Source: Lentimicrobium sp. L6
GTDB lineage: Bacteria; Bacteroidota; Bacteroidia; Bacteroidales; UBA12170
Direction of reading: 5' to 3'
Length of the DNA: 64,000 nucleotides
Assembly: GCF_013166655.1 (NCBI RefSeq)
Contig: NZ_JABKCA010000019.1
Coordinates: forward strand, 1 to 64,000
Shown: positions 2,537-48,696 of the stretch, one piece after another
Layout: every line of letters starts with the position of its first letter
Numbering within the stretch: the first letter of the stretch is position 1
Notes under the pieces: model-generated
Told to the model about the DNA's origin: nothing
Databases searched by the model: none
What the model saw: the letters and a program-made list of their open reading frames with translations, nothing else
Made by a program: the position numbers and the translations under genes

Positions 2537-5130
2537 TTACGATATGGGAATAATGAAGAAAAAATCTGATCCTTTGCCCAATTCACTATGCAAGCCCATC
2601 TCTCCTCCTAGTAGTTCCACATAAGCTTTTGAAATAGTCAGTCCCAAGCCTGAACCTTCATTCACTCTAGAATCATCGGCATCTGCTTGGATAAATCTAT
2701 CAAAGATATGTTCTTGTTTTTCAAGTGGAATTCCAATTCCATTGTCTTTCACATGAAACTCAAAGTATTCATTATTCATTAATGTTATTCTTTGAAACCA
2801 AAACTCAATTATGCCTTTATCACTGTATTTAATGGCATTTTTTATTAAATTGGTAAGAATAGCATATAGTTTTTCTTTATCAGATTGAATGATCGTGCCT
2901 TTATGTTCTTGCGGAATACTTAGCTTTAATTCCATTCCTTTCTTCTCTGTTTCTTTTCTGAAGAAACTATAGAGTAATTGCATTTGCTCATTCAAATTAA
3001 AAGAAGAAATCATCACCTCTATCTGTCCTGCCTCAATCTTAGAAATATCAATTAAATCGTTAATGATATCTAGTAAGTGAGTTCCAGACCGATTAATTAC
3101 TTTGATATATTCCTCTTGTTCAACTTTAGTTAAATCAGGCTCCTTTAATAAACTAGCAAAACCTAAGATGCCATTCATTGGGGTTCTAATTTCATGACTC
3201 ATATTAGCTAAAAAAGCGGATTTTAGTCGATCACTTTCTTCTGCCTTCATTAAGGCATTAATCAAGTGTTCTTCTGCTCTTTTTCTATGTATCAGCATGC
3301 TTATTTGATCTGAAATAAATTCTAGCATTTCCAAATCAGAATCATCATAGGCCAATTCATTTGCATAGCTTTGAACTGCTATTACACCAATTACTTTTTT
3401 ATCTATTTTTACAGGAACGCCCATCCAAATTAATGATGTCTTACCAAAAAGGTGAATTTCACCATCAGAAGCTAACTGACTTATCTTTTGACTATTGGCT
3501 AATAATGGTAATTGAGTTTTAATCACATAATGAGTTAATGTATTTCCTTCTAGAAAGGATTTATCATCTTCAAATTCATCTTTTAAATAAGGAATAGTAA
3601 TTTCATTATTGCTATTATTATATAGCGCCAGATAAAAATTTGAGGCATCTATACTTGTATTCAACTCTTTATGAATAATACCAACAAACTGGCCTAAATC
3701 TTTGCTATAGTTAGCTGCATTTGAAATATTAAGAATAATTTGTCTGATATTGTCTTGCCTTTTATGTTCCGTAATATCCTTTGCAAAACTAATCATGCCT
3801 ATAATCTGATCATCACTAAAAATAGGTGCTGTATTTACCAAAAGCGTTAATAGCTTTTGATGATTTGTTTTTAGTTTGAATTCATAATTTACTGATTCTC
3901 CATTTAAATTCTTCAAAACAACTTCTTGCAAAAAAGCTAATTCTTCTGCCAATACTAATGGGCTAAAATGATTACCATACCATTCCTCACGTATAAGTCC
4001 CGTTTGCTCTACCGCTCGATCGTTGATAAAAGTAATTTTTCCTTCAAGGTCTAACATCCAAATAAAATCATTAGATGTTTCAATCATGGTACGGTACTTT
4101 TCTTCACTTTCACGTAGTATTTTTTCAGCAAGTTTTCTTTTTCTCTCCTCTTTTAGAAAAGCCCTTATTTTTGAGCTTGAGTAAAAAAAGTATAATATAA
4201 ATAGGAAAAGTACTGAGAAAATGAGAATAAGCCTATTACGTAGTTGATGTAATTCAGAATAAATATCCTCTTCTTCATATGAAATGATAATGGTCCAGTA
4301 TGTATTCCCAATAGGAGTTCTATAAAAGACCATATGCTTCTTTTGAACCTCTTCCTCTTTCAATAACACTTGTTGATGATGACTAATTATTGTTCCTGAA
4401 CTATCCTTTTTTATAACCTTGCTAAATTTTATCGCTTCATCTTCAAAATTGCAATTCTCAAGATATGATCTTCCCAAATGCTCTTTATATGGACAATATA
4501 TCTCTATCAAATCTTTACTGAGCAGCCATATTACGCCAGTTTCTCTAATTTTTACTTTTTGAAAATAACGCTGTCCTAACTTATCAATTGGTATTAAAAT
4601 AGCAATGCTTCCTATAAATCTGGCCTTATCAAAAATGGGAACATGCATAGCAATACAAAGATATCCTTGAACAGCTTGAAACACATCACTAATAACTATT
4701 TTTTGTGTTTTCAGAACCAACTCTACATGTTTTTGATAAGAAATATCTTTCCCTATTGATAAACTATCATAGGGAAAGGTATATTGGATAATTCCATTGG
4801 AGTCTACTCTAGTAATAGCAGATATAAGATTTTTTCGATTGTTAAAATAGCTTTTAAAAAGAGCACTACCTTCTGCATCAAAATCTTTTATACTTTCAAG
4901 TTCGGAAATAAAAGTGATTTCCGATTGATAATCATTAAAGAAAGATGTAATTCCTTGAGCTGCTGTTTGAGCAAGAGTTATTTGTTCTGTATTAAAATCA
5001 TTGATTGTTCCTTCTTCCTTTTTTCATATGCCAGATGGAAAAGAAGATAAAACACGAGCATTAATACAGGTATAATAAAATACCTTATTGAAAGCTTTGA
5101 ATTGATTCTATTATAATATCGTTTTATCAT
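2537..5130 (-). CDS. Membrane sensor histidine kinase (Cache-PAS-GAF-HisKA-HATPase), frameshifted near its N-terminus
   Basis: The main frame (4720-2537) encodes the end of a periplasmic Cache-like sensor, a membrane helix (LILIFSVLFLFILYFF), a PAS domain, a GAF domain, the phospho-acceptor motif NMSHEIRTPMNGILGF, the N-box NLIKNAIKYS, and the DNGIGI and GSGLGL ATP-lid motifs. Catalytic residues are intact. The N-terminus lies upstream in another frame: ATG at 5130 starts MIKRYYNRINSKLSIRYFII and a first membrane helix. The protein continues correctly (EGTINDFNTEQITLAQTAAQ...) only if one A is added to the six-A run at 5019-5024. Restored length would be about 864 aa. No receiver domain is attached. 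As sequenced, only the internal fragment is open, so this is a recent mutation, a phase-variable run or a sequencing indel. Confidence 0.8.
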
Positions 5131-5824: not shown

Positions 5825-7207
5825 TTAATAAGATGGTAAACGCACGATAAATTCACTCCCTTTATCAGGAATACTGGTTACCGAAATATTTCCACCGTTT
5901 TTTTCTACAAATTCTTTGCACAGTATTAAGCCCAATCCAGTGCCTTGCTCAAAATTGGTACCTGGAGTGGAGATATTCTTATCAATCTGAAATAGTGAAT
6001 CCACATGCTTTCTGCTCATTCCTAGACCAGGATCGATAAACTTAATAATAACAGCATCTTGATTGCTTTCGAGAATAATTTCGACGATTCCTTTTTTGGT
6101 AAATTTAATCGCATTTGAGATTAAATTCATCACTGTAGAATTTATCATATGCTCATCTGCCAAAACAATATAACTAAGCGCCTCTTTATATTCAAATTTT
6201 ATTGACAAACCCTTGCTTAAAATCTGGGCTTCTACTAAATTCACATTCTCTTCAATAAGCTCTTTTAAATCCAATTTAACAGGAACATATGATATATCAT
6301 TAGATTGAAGACGAGCCCATTCTAATAAGTTTAATAATAGTTGATATGACTTTTTAGATGAGGAATTTAACACATCAATATATTGTAATATTTCAGGATC
6401 ATCAATTTTTTGTTTTGCTTCCATCAACACATTACTAACACCTAAAATTGAATTAAAAGGATTTTTCAAATCATGTGAGATAATTGAGAAGAATCGGTCT
6501 TTTGTAGCATTCAGTTCCTGTAAACTTTGAGCCTTTCTTTCTAACTCAAACTTATGCTCCTCAATTTCACTTTGTTGGGCTAAAATCTCTTCTTGTTTAT
6601 TCATTAAAAGCATATTCTGTTTCTCCAACTTTCCATTTGCCCGAGTATACATATTATAATATATGTTTAGATAAATAATAATACCAGCTACCGAAAATGA
6701 AAAACCTAAAACCATATCCATATACTGAGCATGTTCATCAACATAAGGAATGATCAGCTGAGGATAAAGGTAACCTACCACCAAAGAAATTAAACTTGAA
6801 GCTATCAACATGGCTATTAAAACTACTCTGGTAGTTCCGGTAAATACCACATGAATAGCCACTAACATTAAGGGAATAAAGTATTGTATAGAACCATTGC
6901 TCCCTCCAGTAGAAAACCATAAAACCGGCAAAAAGATAAAAACGATAAAGCCAAGAGTTAGCATTTCAATAGCAGGATATCGTTTTCGCTTAAACCTTGT
7001 AAAATAATAGGCTATGCTGCAAACTATTAAGCTTAATAGCGCCATCACAATGGATATCCAGTGTAAGTCGAGAAGGAAATTAGACAGTGCCGCTAAACCC
7101 GAAAATAGAATCCCTATGGCTAGGGTAATATTGAGCAGCTGATGCCTAAGGTCAATTACTCTATCATCACCAGATATATAATTTATAATAACTTTTGTAA
7201 AGTTCAT
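5825..7207 (-). CDS. Membrane-bound sensor histidine kinase
   Basis: The N-terminal 190 residues contain about six hydrophobic helices with short loops and no large periplasmic domain, so the sensor is probably intramembrane. A coiled-coil linker (about 195-235) leads to the HisKA motif FFSIISHDLKNPFNSILG with the phospho-acceptor His. The ATPase domain has NLISNAIKFT, DPGLGMS and GTGLGLILCKEFVEKNGG. All catalytic motifs are present and there is no receiver domain. No response regulator lies nearby, so it is an orphan kinase. It ends 5 bp from the convergent PNPOx-like gene. Confidence 0.9.
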   Translation of the reverse strand: MNFTKVIINYISGDDRVIDLRHQLLNITLAIGILFSGLAALSNFLLDLHWISIVMALLSLIVCSIAYYFTRFKRKRYPAIEMLTLGFIVFIFLPVLWFSTGGSNGSIQYFIPLMLVAIHVVFTGTTRVVLIAMLIASSLISLVVGYLYPQLIIPYVDEHAQYMDMVLGFSFSVAGIIIYLNIYYNMYTRANGKLEKQNMLLMNKQEEILAQQSEIEEHKFELERKAQSLQELNATKDRFFSIISHDLKNPFNSILGVSNVLMEAKQKIDDPEILQYIDVLNSSSKKSYQLLLNLLEWARLQSNDISYVPVKLDLKELIEENVNLVEAQILSKGLSIKFEYKEALSYIVLADEHMINSTVMNLISNAIKFTKKGIVEIILESNQDAVIIKFIDPGLGMSRKHVDSLFQIDKNISTPGTNFEQGTGLGLILCKEFVEKNGGNISVTSIPDKGSEFIVRLPSY

Positions 7208-7378
7208 TAATGATTGTGATTATTGTAGATAGGAATAATTGATCGTAATGGTTTGATAAAATTAAGCTATTTTTTTTCCAATTACAAGGGAATATCACCT
7301 AATTAACCTAATATTCAAATACTAACATATCATTCACATTTATTTTACTATCTTCGTAAACCATATAAAACATATATC

Positions 7379-44876: not shown

Positions 44877-47267
44877 CTAAGCTATTAAACTTTCAAGCAA
44901 TGTTTTTAATTCAAATATTTGGTAAGGTTTATTGATGATGGCATCACATCCATCACTCAATATTTGATTTCTATATTTGATATCTGGCGAAGACATAATG
45001 AAAACAACTTTAGTACTTGCCTCTAATTGTAGTTTTAAATTTTCTTGAATCAAATGAAGAAGGTTAAATACATCACTTTGCTTTATTGGAGCTTCAACCA
45101 AAATAAAGTCTAATTTACCTGTTTTTAGAAGAGCAGAAGCGTGAGTTCTATTATTAGCAAATTTAGCTTGAATTCCAATTTCATCAAATTGACTTAAATA
45201 CACTGATTTTAAGGAAAAATCTTCGAGAATAAAGAGTAATTTTTTATCGCTTAGCTTTTTAGAAAAAAGATTCTTCACCAAAGTCCTTGGTTTTAAATTC
45301 ATCTCTTTTGAAAATACACCTTTATTAAACTTTACTTGAATAAAAAACATAGAACCCTCATTTACAACACTCTTTACACCTATTTCCCCATTAATAATTC
45401 CAGCTAATTGCTTGAGTATAGCAAATCCAACACCTTGGCTATTTAAAGTATAAAAATCATTCAAATCCTCACCAAATCTTATCTGATTTGGCATCTCTTG
45501 CGTCATTCCAACACCAGAGTCTTCTACTTCAAAAGAAATTTTTACCGAAGTCTCATAATCCTCTATCAATTTGGTTCTAATAATAATATTCCCTTGATTC
45601 GTAAAATATATCGCGTTAGTTACAAACTGTTCAATAATTAATTGAAGTTTATCCTCATCACCAATTAAATATTTAGGAACCATTTCATCCTTTTCAATTA
45701 TCAAGTTTAAGCCTTTACTAATAGAATTCTCCAAATTCGCATTGACTATTAATTGAATAGTTTTATCAACATTAAAAACAGTGGAGGAGTATTCCTTTAT
45801 ATCATAGGGATAATCCCCTAATACAAAGTGCCGTTTTAATCGCTTATTAATCAAAATACTAGACTCCATTAGTTGCGATATCACCTCCTTATTTTCTTTA
45901 GTTTTATCTTTTCTACTTAACAATTCAACATTAGACAATATACTTTGTAATGGAGAACGAATTTCAAAATTAAACATATCAAAGTATTCCTTTTTACTAT
46001 TTTTACTTCGATAAATAAATTCTTTACAATCCTTTACTTCCTTAGTCAAAATTTGAGTTTGGTTGAGTAATTGCTTTGTTGATTTCTCTCTCTTTTGATT
46101 AATCTCATTGATATCTTGCTTTAACACCTTTAAGGCATTATATATATCTTTATAATCACTACTAGGGTTATCCAAAACATTTTCCATTTCATAATCATCT
46201 GACCACAAAACCCCTCCAATAGCTTCGAGAATCTTTCTTTTTTCTACATCACTAGCTATTTTAAGTTTCTCATTTTCTTTTCTTAGAGCCAATAATTCAT
46301 TAAAAACATCACCATTCTCCTTTTTATTTCCTTCAATTTCAGCGTTTTCTTTAAAATAAGTTTGGCCATATTTATGATTCAAAACTAACTTTACTGCCTC
46401 CTCAAATGAATCAGCGATTTTCACCTTATAGAACTTTGGATGAATGAGTTTCCCAAACTTAACAATGGCCTTCATAAATGAATTCAAACCATAAAAAACC
46501 ATTAAATCTATTCGATTTATATTATTAATGATATAATTGGTAAAGTCTCTACGAGCTGACAAGCTACTACTCAATACCTCCGTATAATCCTGGATTCGAT
46601 AATAATGGGCTTTCGTTCCTAATAATTTATAAACTACTTTATCAAAAAGCACATTTGCTGATAGGGAGTTTTCTTCTTCTATATAACCCACTGGCCGAGA
46701 AATAAAAATATTGGCATCTAAGAGATCTATTTTATAATAATATGAATTGCTTGGGTGCTGATAATTCCAACTCTTATCATGAATCATAATAAAACTCTTA
46801 TCGATAATTTTAATATTATCCTTTATTATCCCAGTAAATGAGGAAGGTCCGATGGCTAAAGTATTCATTTTCTCTAGGCTACTTAACTCTTTAGCTTTGA
46901 TTAATGCCTGATCTTCAGTATCAAATTCAAATACAGTAATATTGGAATCATTATGAAATAGTAAATGCAAATTTGCACTATACCCTATCTTTAATCCATA
47001 TACAAGAATTTCGAAACCTTTATGTGGAAAGAAATTATTTTCAAAAACATATTGCTTGGCCTTAAACTCTATGGAAATAAATTCGTTTAAATCGAGAATT
47101 ACATATATGGTTTGCTTATTCTCCTTTTCTTTAGAAAAATATTTTTCAATTTCTAACAGAGAAACCAATGACAAGTCACCTTTAATAGTAATCTTTATTA
47201 AATGCAAATCAAGCTCAACAATCTCTAAATTGTTTTTCTTAGAATTAATTTGATTTGCACTGTTCAT
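44877..47267 (-). CDS. Degenerate hybrid histidine kinase (pseudokinase-type) with STAS-like N-terminus
   Basis: The 796-aa soluble protein starts with a STAS-like domain (HLIKITIKGDLSLVSLLEIE) and a second uncharacterised domain (about 130-310). It continues with a coiled coil (325-420), a DHp region, an HATPase domain and a receiver-like end. The DHp motif reads FNFEIRSPLQSIL: Phe434 stands where the phosphorylated His belongs. The ATPase keeps N551 and DSGVGM (583-588), but the G2 box is NSQGVGF. In the receiver the acidic pair and Lys780 remain, while the phospho-acceptor Asp is Glu725 (LDFILVEAP). Classical phosphotransfer is therefore unlikely; the protein may be a signalling scaffold or a locked-state regulator. 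Confidence 0.8.
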   Translation of the reverse strand: MNSANQINSKKNNLEIVELDLHLIKITIKGDLSLVSLLEIEKYFSKEKENKQTIYVILDLNEFISIEFKAKQYVFENNFFPHKGFEILVYGLKIGYSANLHLLFHNDSNITVFEFDTEDQALIKAKELSSLEKMNTLAIGPSSFTGIIKDNIKIIDKSFIMIHDKSWNYQHPSNSYYYKIDLLDANIFISRPVGYIEEENSLSANVLFDKVVYKLLGTKAHYYRIQDYTEVLSSSLSARRDFTNYIINNINRIDLMVFYGLNSFMKAIVKFGKLIHPKFYKVKIADSFEEAVKLVLNHKYGQTYFKENAEIEGNKKENGDVFNELLALRKENEKLKIASDVEKRKILEAIGGVLWSDDYEMENVLDNPSSDYKDIYNALKVLKQDINEINQKREKSTKQLLNQTQILTKEVKDCKEFIYRSKNSKKEYFDMFNFEIRSPLQSILSNVELLSRKDKTKENKEVISQLMESSILINKRLKRHFVLGDYPYDIKEYSSTVFNVDKTIQLIVNANLENSISKGLNLIIEKDEMVPKYLIGDEDKLQLIIEQFVTNAIYFTNQGNIIIRTKLIEDYETSVKISFEVEDSGVGMTQEMPNQIRFGEDLNDFYTLNSQGVGFAILKQLAGIINGEIGVKSVVNEGSMFFIQVKFNKGVFSKEMNLKPRTLVKNLFSKKLSDKKLLFILEDFSLKSVYLSQFDEIGIQAKFANNRTHASALLKTGKLDFILVEAPIKQSDVFNLLHLIQENLKLQLEASTKVVFIMSSPDIKYRNQILSDGCDAIINKPYQIFELKTLLESLIA

Positions 47268-47391: not shown

Positions 47392-48696
47392 TTATATGCG
47401 TTTTATTTTTGCCCCTAGTTGATTAAGACGTTCATCTATATTTTGATAACCCCTATCTATTTGTTCGATATTATCAATAATTGAAGTTCCTTCAGCTGAT
47501 AATGCAGCAATTAGCAAAGCTACCCCAGCTCTAATGTCTGGAGAGGTCATTCGTATACCATGTAGTTTATTTTGATGATCACTACCAATCACTGTAGCTC
47601 TATGAGGATCGCAAAGAATAATCTGAGCACCCATATCTATCAGTTTATCCACAAAGAACAGTCTACTTTCAAACATCTTCTGATGTACAAGTACACTACC
47701 CTTAGCCTGTATAGCGGTAACAATAGCAATACTAATTAAATCTGGAGTAAACCCAGGCCAGGGTGCATCAGAAATGGTAAGGATGGCTCCATCCCTATAC
47801 TTTTGTACTTGATATGAATCTTGAGCAGGAACATATAAGTCATCTCCTCTTAATTCCATTTGTATTCCTAGTTTTTGAAATACTTGAGGAATAATCCCTA
47901 ATTCCTCGTAATGTACATTTTTAATGGTAATTTCTGATTTTGTGATTGCTGCTAAACCAATAAAACTACCTATCTCAATCATATCAGGAAGCATAGTATG
48001 CTCTGTTCCTCCTAATCTATCAACACCAGTAATTTTTAATAAATTACTTCCTATACCATCTATTTTAGCTCCCATTCGACTCAACATACGTGCCAATTGG
48101 AGTAAATAAGGTTCACAAGCAGCATTAAAGATAGTTGTCTTACCTTTAGCCATTACACAAGCCATCAATACATTAGCAGTACCTGTCACACTAGCTTCGT
48201 CTAGAAGCATATAATTACCGGTAAGCTGTTTAGCTATTACCTCATAATAGTTACCTTCTTTATTATAGTTAACCTGAGCTCCTAATTTTTCCAATCCAAT
48301 AAAGTGAGTATCTAATCTTCTTCTACCGATTTTATCACCGCCTGGAGTTGGAATTAAGGCTTTTCCAAACCTGGCCAATAATGGCCCCATAAGCATTACC
48401 GAGCCTCTTAGCATTCCACCTTTTTTAATGAAATTTTCAGAATGTAGATAATCTAAATTTACTTCATCAGCTTTGAAGCTAAATTTACCAGGAGCTAGTT
48501 TCTCAACTTTCACTCCCATTTCAGCTAAAATATCTATTAATTTATTGACATCACGAATGTCTGGAATGTTATTGATAATAACCTCCTCTGGTGTTAACAG
48601 AACAGCACAAAGAATCTGAAGAGCCTCATTTTTAGCTCCTTGCGGATGAATATCACCTGATAATTTATGCCCTCCCTCTATCAGAAATGAACTCAT
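47392..48696 (-). CDS. murA: UDP-N-acetylglucosamine 1-carboxyvinyltransferase
   Basis: Start chosen at ATG 48696 (MSSFLIEGGHKLSGDIHPQG), 434 aa; the longer frame runs through the upstream DUF4290 gene. MurA motifs are present: GAKNEALQILCAVLLTPEEV, RGSVMLMGPLLARFGKALIP and a C-terminal DIRAGVALLIAALSAEG. It commits UDP-GlcNAc to peptidoglycan. The loop that holds catalytic Cys115 in E. coli reads TPGGDKIGRRRLD, with Asp121 in place of Cys, a change that elsewhere gives natural fosfomycin insensitivity. It lies 16 bp after the DUF4290 gene. Confidence 0.95.
   Translation of the reverse strand: MSSFLIEGGHKLSGDIHPQGAKNEALQILCAVLLTPEEVIINNIPDIRDVNKLIDILAEMGVKVEKLAPGKFSFKADEVNLDYLHSENFIKKGGMLRGSVMLMGPLLARFGKALIPTPGGDKIGRRRLDTHFIGLEKLGAQVNYNKEGNYYEVIAKQLTGNYMLLDEASVTGTANVLMACVMAKGKTTIFNAACEPYLLQLARMLSRMGAKIDGIGSNLLKITGVDRLGGTEHTMLPDMIEIGSFIGLAAITKSEITIKNVHYEELGIIPQVFQKLGIQMELRGDDLYVPAQDSYQVQKYRDGAILTISDAPWPGFTPDLISIAIVTAIQAKGSVLVHQKMFESRLFFVDKLIDMGAQIILCDPHRATVIGSDHQNKLHGIRMTSPDIRAGVALLIAALSAEGTSIIDNIEQIDRGYQNIDERLNQLGAKIKRI

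Follow-up and report, generated by a model that had tools for sequence, protein, structure and literature searches.

The gene at positions 44877-47267 of the window (i.e., the whole 64,000-nucleotide stretch of Lentimicrobium sp. L6 DNA that was analysed) encodes a hybrid histidine kinase in which both phospho-acceptors are replaced. The explanation that we favour, and hold to be probable as a whole, is that it is a genus-wide degenerate hybrid kinase now serving as a STAS-domain and dimer scaffold outside any phosphorelay, vertically inherited within one Bacteroidales genus. Throughout, G000 designates the genome of the window and G003 that of its sister (closest) species.

A hybrid histidine kinase without phospho-acceptors

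The features of the gene and of its upstream neighbour are as follows.

44877..47267, - strand: whole gene, degenerate hybrid histidine kinase, 796 aa (open frame)
46863..47231, - strand: STAS1, about residues 13-135, SpoIIAA-like by fold, evolving fast (fold comparison)
46338..46829, - strand: STAS2, about residues 147-310, most constrained part (fold comparison and identity)
46008..46337, - strand: linker and helical (coiled-coil-like) region, about residues 311-420, running into the DHp helix (low-confidence model)
45783..46007, - strand: DHp domain, about residues 421-495 (HisKA below cut-off and column comparison)
45966-45968, - strand: Phe434 at the phospho-His position, codon TTT (codon read)
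45288..45782, - strand: GHKL ATPase (CA) domain, about residues 496-660 (HATPase_c)
44880..45254, - strand: receiver domain without phospho-Asp, about residues 672-796 (Response_reg below cut-off and model)
45093-45095, - strand: Glu725 at the phospho-Asp position, codon GAA (codon read)
47395..48690, - strand (same strand): murA-like gene, directly upstream (Pfam EPSP_synthase)

The frame 44877-47267 (-) runs from ATG to stop with no internal stop. The DHp domain reads FNFEIRSPL where the H-box is expected, and Pfam HisKA matches residues 435-471 at only 16 bits, under its cut-off of 26.9. HATPase_c passes its cut-off of 26.4 at residues 536-647 (48.4 bits), and the ATP-site residues identifiable by sequence are N551, D583, G585 and G587, with G2 as GVG and the box DSGVGM; the N-box Lys is replaced by Tyr. 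Response_reg matches residues 693-791 with 22.2 bits, under the cut-off of 30.2, and the receiver retains the E682/D683 acidic pair and K780. A first-pass annotation of this DNA had placed Phe434 and Glu725 at the acceptor sites and had reported N551, DSGVGM and K780 as retained, all of which our reading confirms. Of the two residues expected of a hybrid kinase, the phospho-His is thus represented by Phe434 and the phospho-Asp by Glu725, Asp being found at this site in 0/8 orthologues. By sequence and structure model, the protein has the profile of a histidine pseudokinase, with the HisKA/GHKL fold present and the kinase reaction disabled.

A sequencing error or chance frame was ruled out, as the sister species has identical TTT and GAA codons at both sites. 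Moreover, a single sequencing error cannot explain Phe434, because going from His (CAY) to Phe (TTY) takes two base changes.

Loss of the phospho-His is rare within the window's own genome, where 86 of 89 HisKA matches have His (83 scored by pattern, 6 by eye). The three proteins without it are the window protein, a 281-aa protein (Phe) and a 283-aa protein (Asn). The 281-aa kinase-like protein (L195:2750-3592; G000:C44:5249-6091, +) has its Phe within an H-box that is normal in all other respects (MSFEIRTPM) and has HisKA and HATPase_c over cut-off; no G1 DxGxG motif was seen in it by eye. The 283-aa kinase-like protein (L196:2154-3002; G000:C46:14653-15501, +; NITNEIINPF) lies in a chemotaxis-type cluster, flanked by cheR-like and cheD-like genes, after which come a cheB-like gene and a canonical hybrid kinase gene (names assigned by eye). 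The window itself encodes two further histidine kinases at 2540-5023 and 5828-7219 (-), both with HisKA and HATPase_c over cut-off and one bearing dCache, PAS and GAF domains.

Two STAS-type domains at the N-terminus

By predicted fold, the N-terminus looks like two STAS-type domains, securely so for STAS2 and less so for STAS1. The AlphaFold model of residues 1-340 has an overall pLDDT of 76; within residues 161-300, 13 of 14 ten-residue blocks lie at 86-93 and one at 78. Against known structures, the model has the STAS superfamily fold, more weakly in STAS1: residues 171-298 match SpoIIAA 1tid_B (Z 12.8, rmsd 2.5, 117 aligned), and residues 10-127 match 2ook_B (Z 10.0, rmsd 2.8, 110 aligned; Foldseek E 2e-3). 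Seven of the eight Foldseek rows at E <= 0.001 are STAS chains and one is unrelated. STAS1 is the less secure of the two because unrelated protease chains score Z 9.4-9.7 in the same structure-comparison list. The first-pass annotation had described a STAS-like domain and an unknown domain in place of the usual sensor; the former stands, and the "unknown" domain appears to be of STAS type by fold as well.

Sequence searches were less telling. A Pfam scan of the N-terminal 310 residues gave no STAS family match, and searching the PDB sequences with a profile of the N-terminus returned no STAS chain, its best row being 2fyh_A (E 4e-4, positions 3-68). Related proteins have SpoIIAA-like or DUF7793 Pfam matches, all sub-threshold.

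In phospho-regulated STAS proteins of the SpoIIAA type, the phosphorylated Ser lies at the start of helix 2. In the predicted model, Ser234 sits between strand 231-234 and helix 236-249; judged from topology and not from alignment, it may be the counterpart of SpoIIAA Ser58. The position holds Ser or Thr in 8/8 orthologues and Thr also in the relatives L052 and L054, most other relatives being different.

Confidence in the full-length AlphaFold model is low (pLDDT 68, pTM 0.33), and we consequently claim no inter-domain arrangement. It predicts helices at 321-355 and 370-452, the latter including F434, and places residue 725 at the end of receiver strand 721-725.

Degeneration of the phosphorelay across the genus

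At the phospho-His column, the eight orthologues have Phe (G000, G003), Gln (G002), Asn (G001) or His (G004, G007, G008, G010). At the receiver Asp column they have Glu (G000, G003), Ser (G001, G002, G004) or Asn (G007, G008, G010), the Ser of G002 sitting in a gapped, eroded receiver. His has therefore been lost in four of eight orthologues, at least twice on the tree, and neither the receiver Asp nor a complete H-box occurs in any of the eight. Within the H-box, R-[TS]-P is kept only in G000 and G003, both of which have Phe, and is gone in all four orthologues with His. The Pfam receiver model scores over its cut-off in G003 only (31.6 vs 30.2 bits) and below it in the other seven.

At the ATP site, N551 and G585/G587 are retained in 8/8 orthologues, D583 in 7/8 (lost in G002) and the G2 GxG in 6/8, the second Gly being lost in G003 and the first in G002. 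All members of the five-genome clade still have the N-box Lys, with Tyr or Asp instead in the window's clade.

These columns bear directly on how Glu725 is to be read. The first-pass annotation took it for a phosphomimic and proposed, as a check, that Phe and Glu conserved among orthologues would support a pseudokinase family; yet the pair is common only to the window species and its closest relative. Because Glu is found in only two of eight orthologues, with Asn in three and Ser in three, we interpret the change as loss of the acceptor and not as a selected mimic. The same annotation would have given up its reading had orthologues carried His and Asp at these sites, and half of this is the case, with His in 4/8 and Asp in 0/8. 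Before a Glu in place of a receiver Asp is interpreted as a phosphomimic, the orthologues ought to be checked.

To place the loss, relatives were collected from 393 sampled genomes of the order, among them that of the window; a protein matching STAS2 is encoded in 17 of the 393. The outgroup set comprised 20 genes, after three genes of the window clade and two duplicate rows were dropped. HE-[IV]-R-[TS]-P is found in 16/20, the open frames of the remaining four showing no kinase domain. Since both His and R-[TS]-P are intact in all 16 kinase-bearing relatives sampled from outside the clade, the loss is derived in the genus. In other Bacteroidales, L062, L063, L064 and L065 have STAS2-like domains with no kinase domain found, two of them with a C-terminal PAS.

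Distribution and inheritance

Orthologues are present in 8 of the 11 genomes of the genus, that of the window included, and in all eight the gene lies directly after murA (murA and cysH being the names we take to correspond to Pfam EPSP_synthase and PAPS_reduct matches). Reading the murA locus of G005, G006 and G009 showed that the gene is missing there; the best matches elsewhere in these genomes span only residues 393-795, i.e., the kinase half. The three absences are not grouped on the neighbour-protein tree, and for this reason we count two or three losses; the two nodes separating G005 and G006 have supports of only 62 and 72. The gene tree contains two clades, one made of G000, G003 and G002 and the other of G001, G004, G007, G008 and G010, and matches the neighbour-gene tree wherever nodes are well supported.

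A plasmid origin was considered and rejected: 1310 records of the plasmid collection match, none over more than 80% of the query and all at less than 60% identity, and the synteny is fixed. Promoter-like sites near the gene show no excess (19 vs a shuffle mean of 16.2, sd 4.8), and no terminator-like site was found in the same scan.

Evolutionary constraint

At L040:6751-10877 (G000:C22), the window's genome also carries two paralogues of the window gene, canonical kinases in tandem that combine STAS-like N-terminal domains with HisKA and HATPase_c. Between G000 and G003, the window protein is 83% identical in STAS2, 57% in CA, 54% in both the receiver and STAS1, and 51% in DHp. For the canonical paralogue and the same genome pair, the values are 93% in DHp, 85% in CA, and 82 and 79% in the STAS domains, so that the order of conservation among domains is reversed relative to the window gene.

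Substitution rates show the same trend. For this pair, dN is 0.105 for STAS2, against 0.309 (ATPase), 0.335 (STAS1), 0.360 (receiver) and 0.435 (DHp); that of STAS2 falls within the range of five neighbouring genes (0.067-0.119). The whole gene is still under purifying selection (dN 0.28, dS ~2.4; NG86), the ratio being only rough because dS is saturated in most parts. Genus-wide tree lengths on a fixed topology are 2.0 for STAS2, 5.7 for the ATPase, 6.6 for the receiver, 7.6 for STAS1, 10.7 for DHp and 11.9 for the linker. Judged by these sequence comparisons, selection is shifted from DHp to STAS2. The conservation of STAS2 is evidence of constraint and not of a binding role.

Residues 432-452, around Phe434, are identical at 19 of 21 positions between G000 and G003, the most conserved 21-mer after residue 310. 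Shuffling residues 421-660 gave this identity in 119 of 5000 trials, for one sequence pair, and 21-mers starting at 374 and at 646-653 are nearly equal to it (18/21). The H-box is a conserved stretch in any kinase. Conservation of 432-452 is as would be expected if the window species still used the DHp surface.

Putative function and alternative explanations

Because the residues that pass phosphate are lost, the relatives are degenerate in various ways and STAS2 is nearly unchanged, the window protein probably acts by binding and not as an enzyme. The ancestor would have been an ordinary kinase in which two STAS domains and a helical linker were followed by DHp, ATPase and receiver. All eight orthologues show loss or damage of the phosphorelay residues, in different ways, with STAS2 nearly frozen. 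STAS2 would bind a partner or ligand and the helical linker and DHp helices would form the dimer, while the leftover kinase and receiver folds would at most help in docking or in conformational change, as in DivL or RocA; no phosphate would pass via residue 434 or 725. The first-pass annotation had likewise proposed a signalling scaffold without phosphotransfer. This survives, given the absence of the receiver Asp and of a complete H-box in all eight orthologues and their eight open frames, without its phosphomimic Glu. Against such a scaffold, STAS1 is no slower in its evolution than the kinase half, and the four orthologues that have His also retain N, G1 and G2 and could, by their sequence, still autophosphorylate.

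The main rival, which we consider rather unlikely, is plain decay, in which kinase and receiver would be functionless, only STAS2 or nothing would be in use, and the gene would be on its way to being lost. Its absence at the murA locus in 3/11 genomes, with two to three losses on the tree, and the fast kinase half (dN 0.31-0.44 vs 0.07-0.12 in the five neighbours) speak against the scaffold and also fit decay, and the second G2 Gly is lost in G003, as are D583 and the first G2 Gly in G002. However, decay would not lead one to expect frames open in 8/8 orthologues across ~800 codons, a STAS2 dN of 0.105 similar to that of the neighbours, a former H-box still 19/21 identical between G000 and G003, or N551 and G585/G587 in every orthologue. 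The claim of the first-pass annotation that the gene reflects selection and not decay needs qualifying: STAS2 is strongly constrained, but the kinase half evolves fast and the gene is absent in three genomes. An improbable alternative is that the protein forms heterodimers with a canonical kinase, e.g., a C22 tandem paralogue, through the linker and the DHp helices, and sets the activity of that kinase. The two canonical paralogues of similar N-terminal architecture and the conserved H-box surroundings in G000 and G003 would suit such a modulator, for which ChrS with HrrS and RetS with GacS, as proposed in print, are precedents; yet the window gene and the C22 kinases are not genetically linked, and among the matches listed, only G000 and G003 have full-length matches to the first C22 kinase. 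In the other nine genomes, the best match listed spans the kinase half only, which makes a C22 partner unlikely for the other species.

Still less credence is given to an ATPase that would hydrolyse ATP or phosphorylate another residue, with Glu725 locking the receiver in an active-like state. N551, D583, GVG and the receiver acidic pair and Lys are all present in the window protein, but Glu occurs in only 2/8 orthologues (Asn or Ser in the rest), receiver identity is no higher than that of the rest of the kinase half, the window's clade has lost the N-box Lys to Tyr or Asp and the second G2 Gly is gone in the sister species. Fainter still is the prospect of a self-contained partner-switch module, in which the GHKL ATPase, no longer tied to a phospho-His, would act on, or be gated by, the fused SpoIIAA-like STAS2 (with its Ser/Thr234 in 8/8 orthologues) as SpoIIAB acts on SpoIIAA; were it true, two distinct signalling logics would be combined in one chain.

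Several states of one syntenic gene coexist in one genus: His with a broken H-box, His lost from an otherwise intact H-box, all eroded, and gene absent. A direct test of phosphotransfer loss with a sensor-side domain under selection is possible, because relatives are still canonical and a canonical paralogue provides a rate control.

Relation to known systems

Pseudo-histidine kinases are already known (e.g., DivL, RocA, ChrS). According to PMC4211667, DivL of Caulobacter has Tyr in place of the phospho-His, shows no autokinase activity and weak binding of an ATP analogue, and acts by binding; it has a conserved patch around the replaced residue, and the Tyr is conserved in orthologues save for one Ala. 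The window protein resembles it in being of histidine-kinase fold with the phospho-His replaced and its surroundings conserved, kinship being compared only at the level of the shared kinase fold. Yet DivL has PAS sensors, whereas the window protein has two STAS domains and a receiver that is likewise dead, and its inactivating residue is not conserved among orthologues as in DivL but differs from species to species.

RocA of group A Streptococcus is described in PMC7028121 as a kinase-like protein that works without using its His; unlike the window protein, it is a membrane protein with a transmembrane sensor, and its His is present but dispensable. The ChrS variant of Corynebacterium glutamicum is an inactive kinase that still signals, proposedly via heterodimers with its paralogue (PMC9491836); it is a laboratory-evolved frameshift in the ATPase domain, whereas the window gene represents a natural lineage. 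RetS-GacS heterodimers are a precedent treated in a review (PMC12189002). Among literature titles on histidine pseudokinases, STAS hybrid kinases and degenerate receivers, none was about a STAS-hybrid pseudokinase.

The canonical STAS-STAS-HisKA kinases of Bacteroidales (the G000:C22 pair and the hybrid L018 of G043) have a similar architecture at 16-21% overall identity. They keep HEIR[TS]P, and L018 also the receiver Asp, whereas the window gene keeps neither. SpoIIAA- and RsbS-type STAS proteins share the fold of STAS2, and less securely that of STAS1, at ~10% identity. These proteins are partners of a separate anti-sigma factor, whereas the STAS domains of the window protein are fused to a kinase.

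Separate RsbW-like proteins were detected in 10/11 genomes of the genus (E 4.4e-18 or better, frames of 163-190 aa), with a family model that also matches in 12/14 control genomes. SpoIIE-type phosphatases were found in seven of the 11 genomes, and not in G001, G004, G005 and G006. A partner switch with a SpoIIE phosphatase as a general mode is thus a weak candidate, as G001 and G004 (the latter 75% complete) carry the gene. A cluster at G000:C16:62349-66574 encodes a SpoIIAB/RsbW-type ATPase, a SpoIIE-type phosphatase and a 762-aa frame fusing an RsbW-type domain to a HisKA kinase, and similar groupings are also present in G002 and G003.
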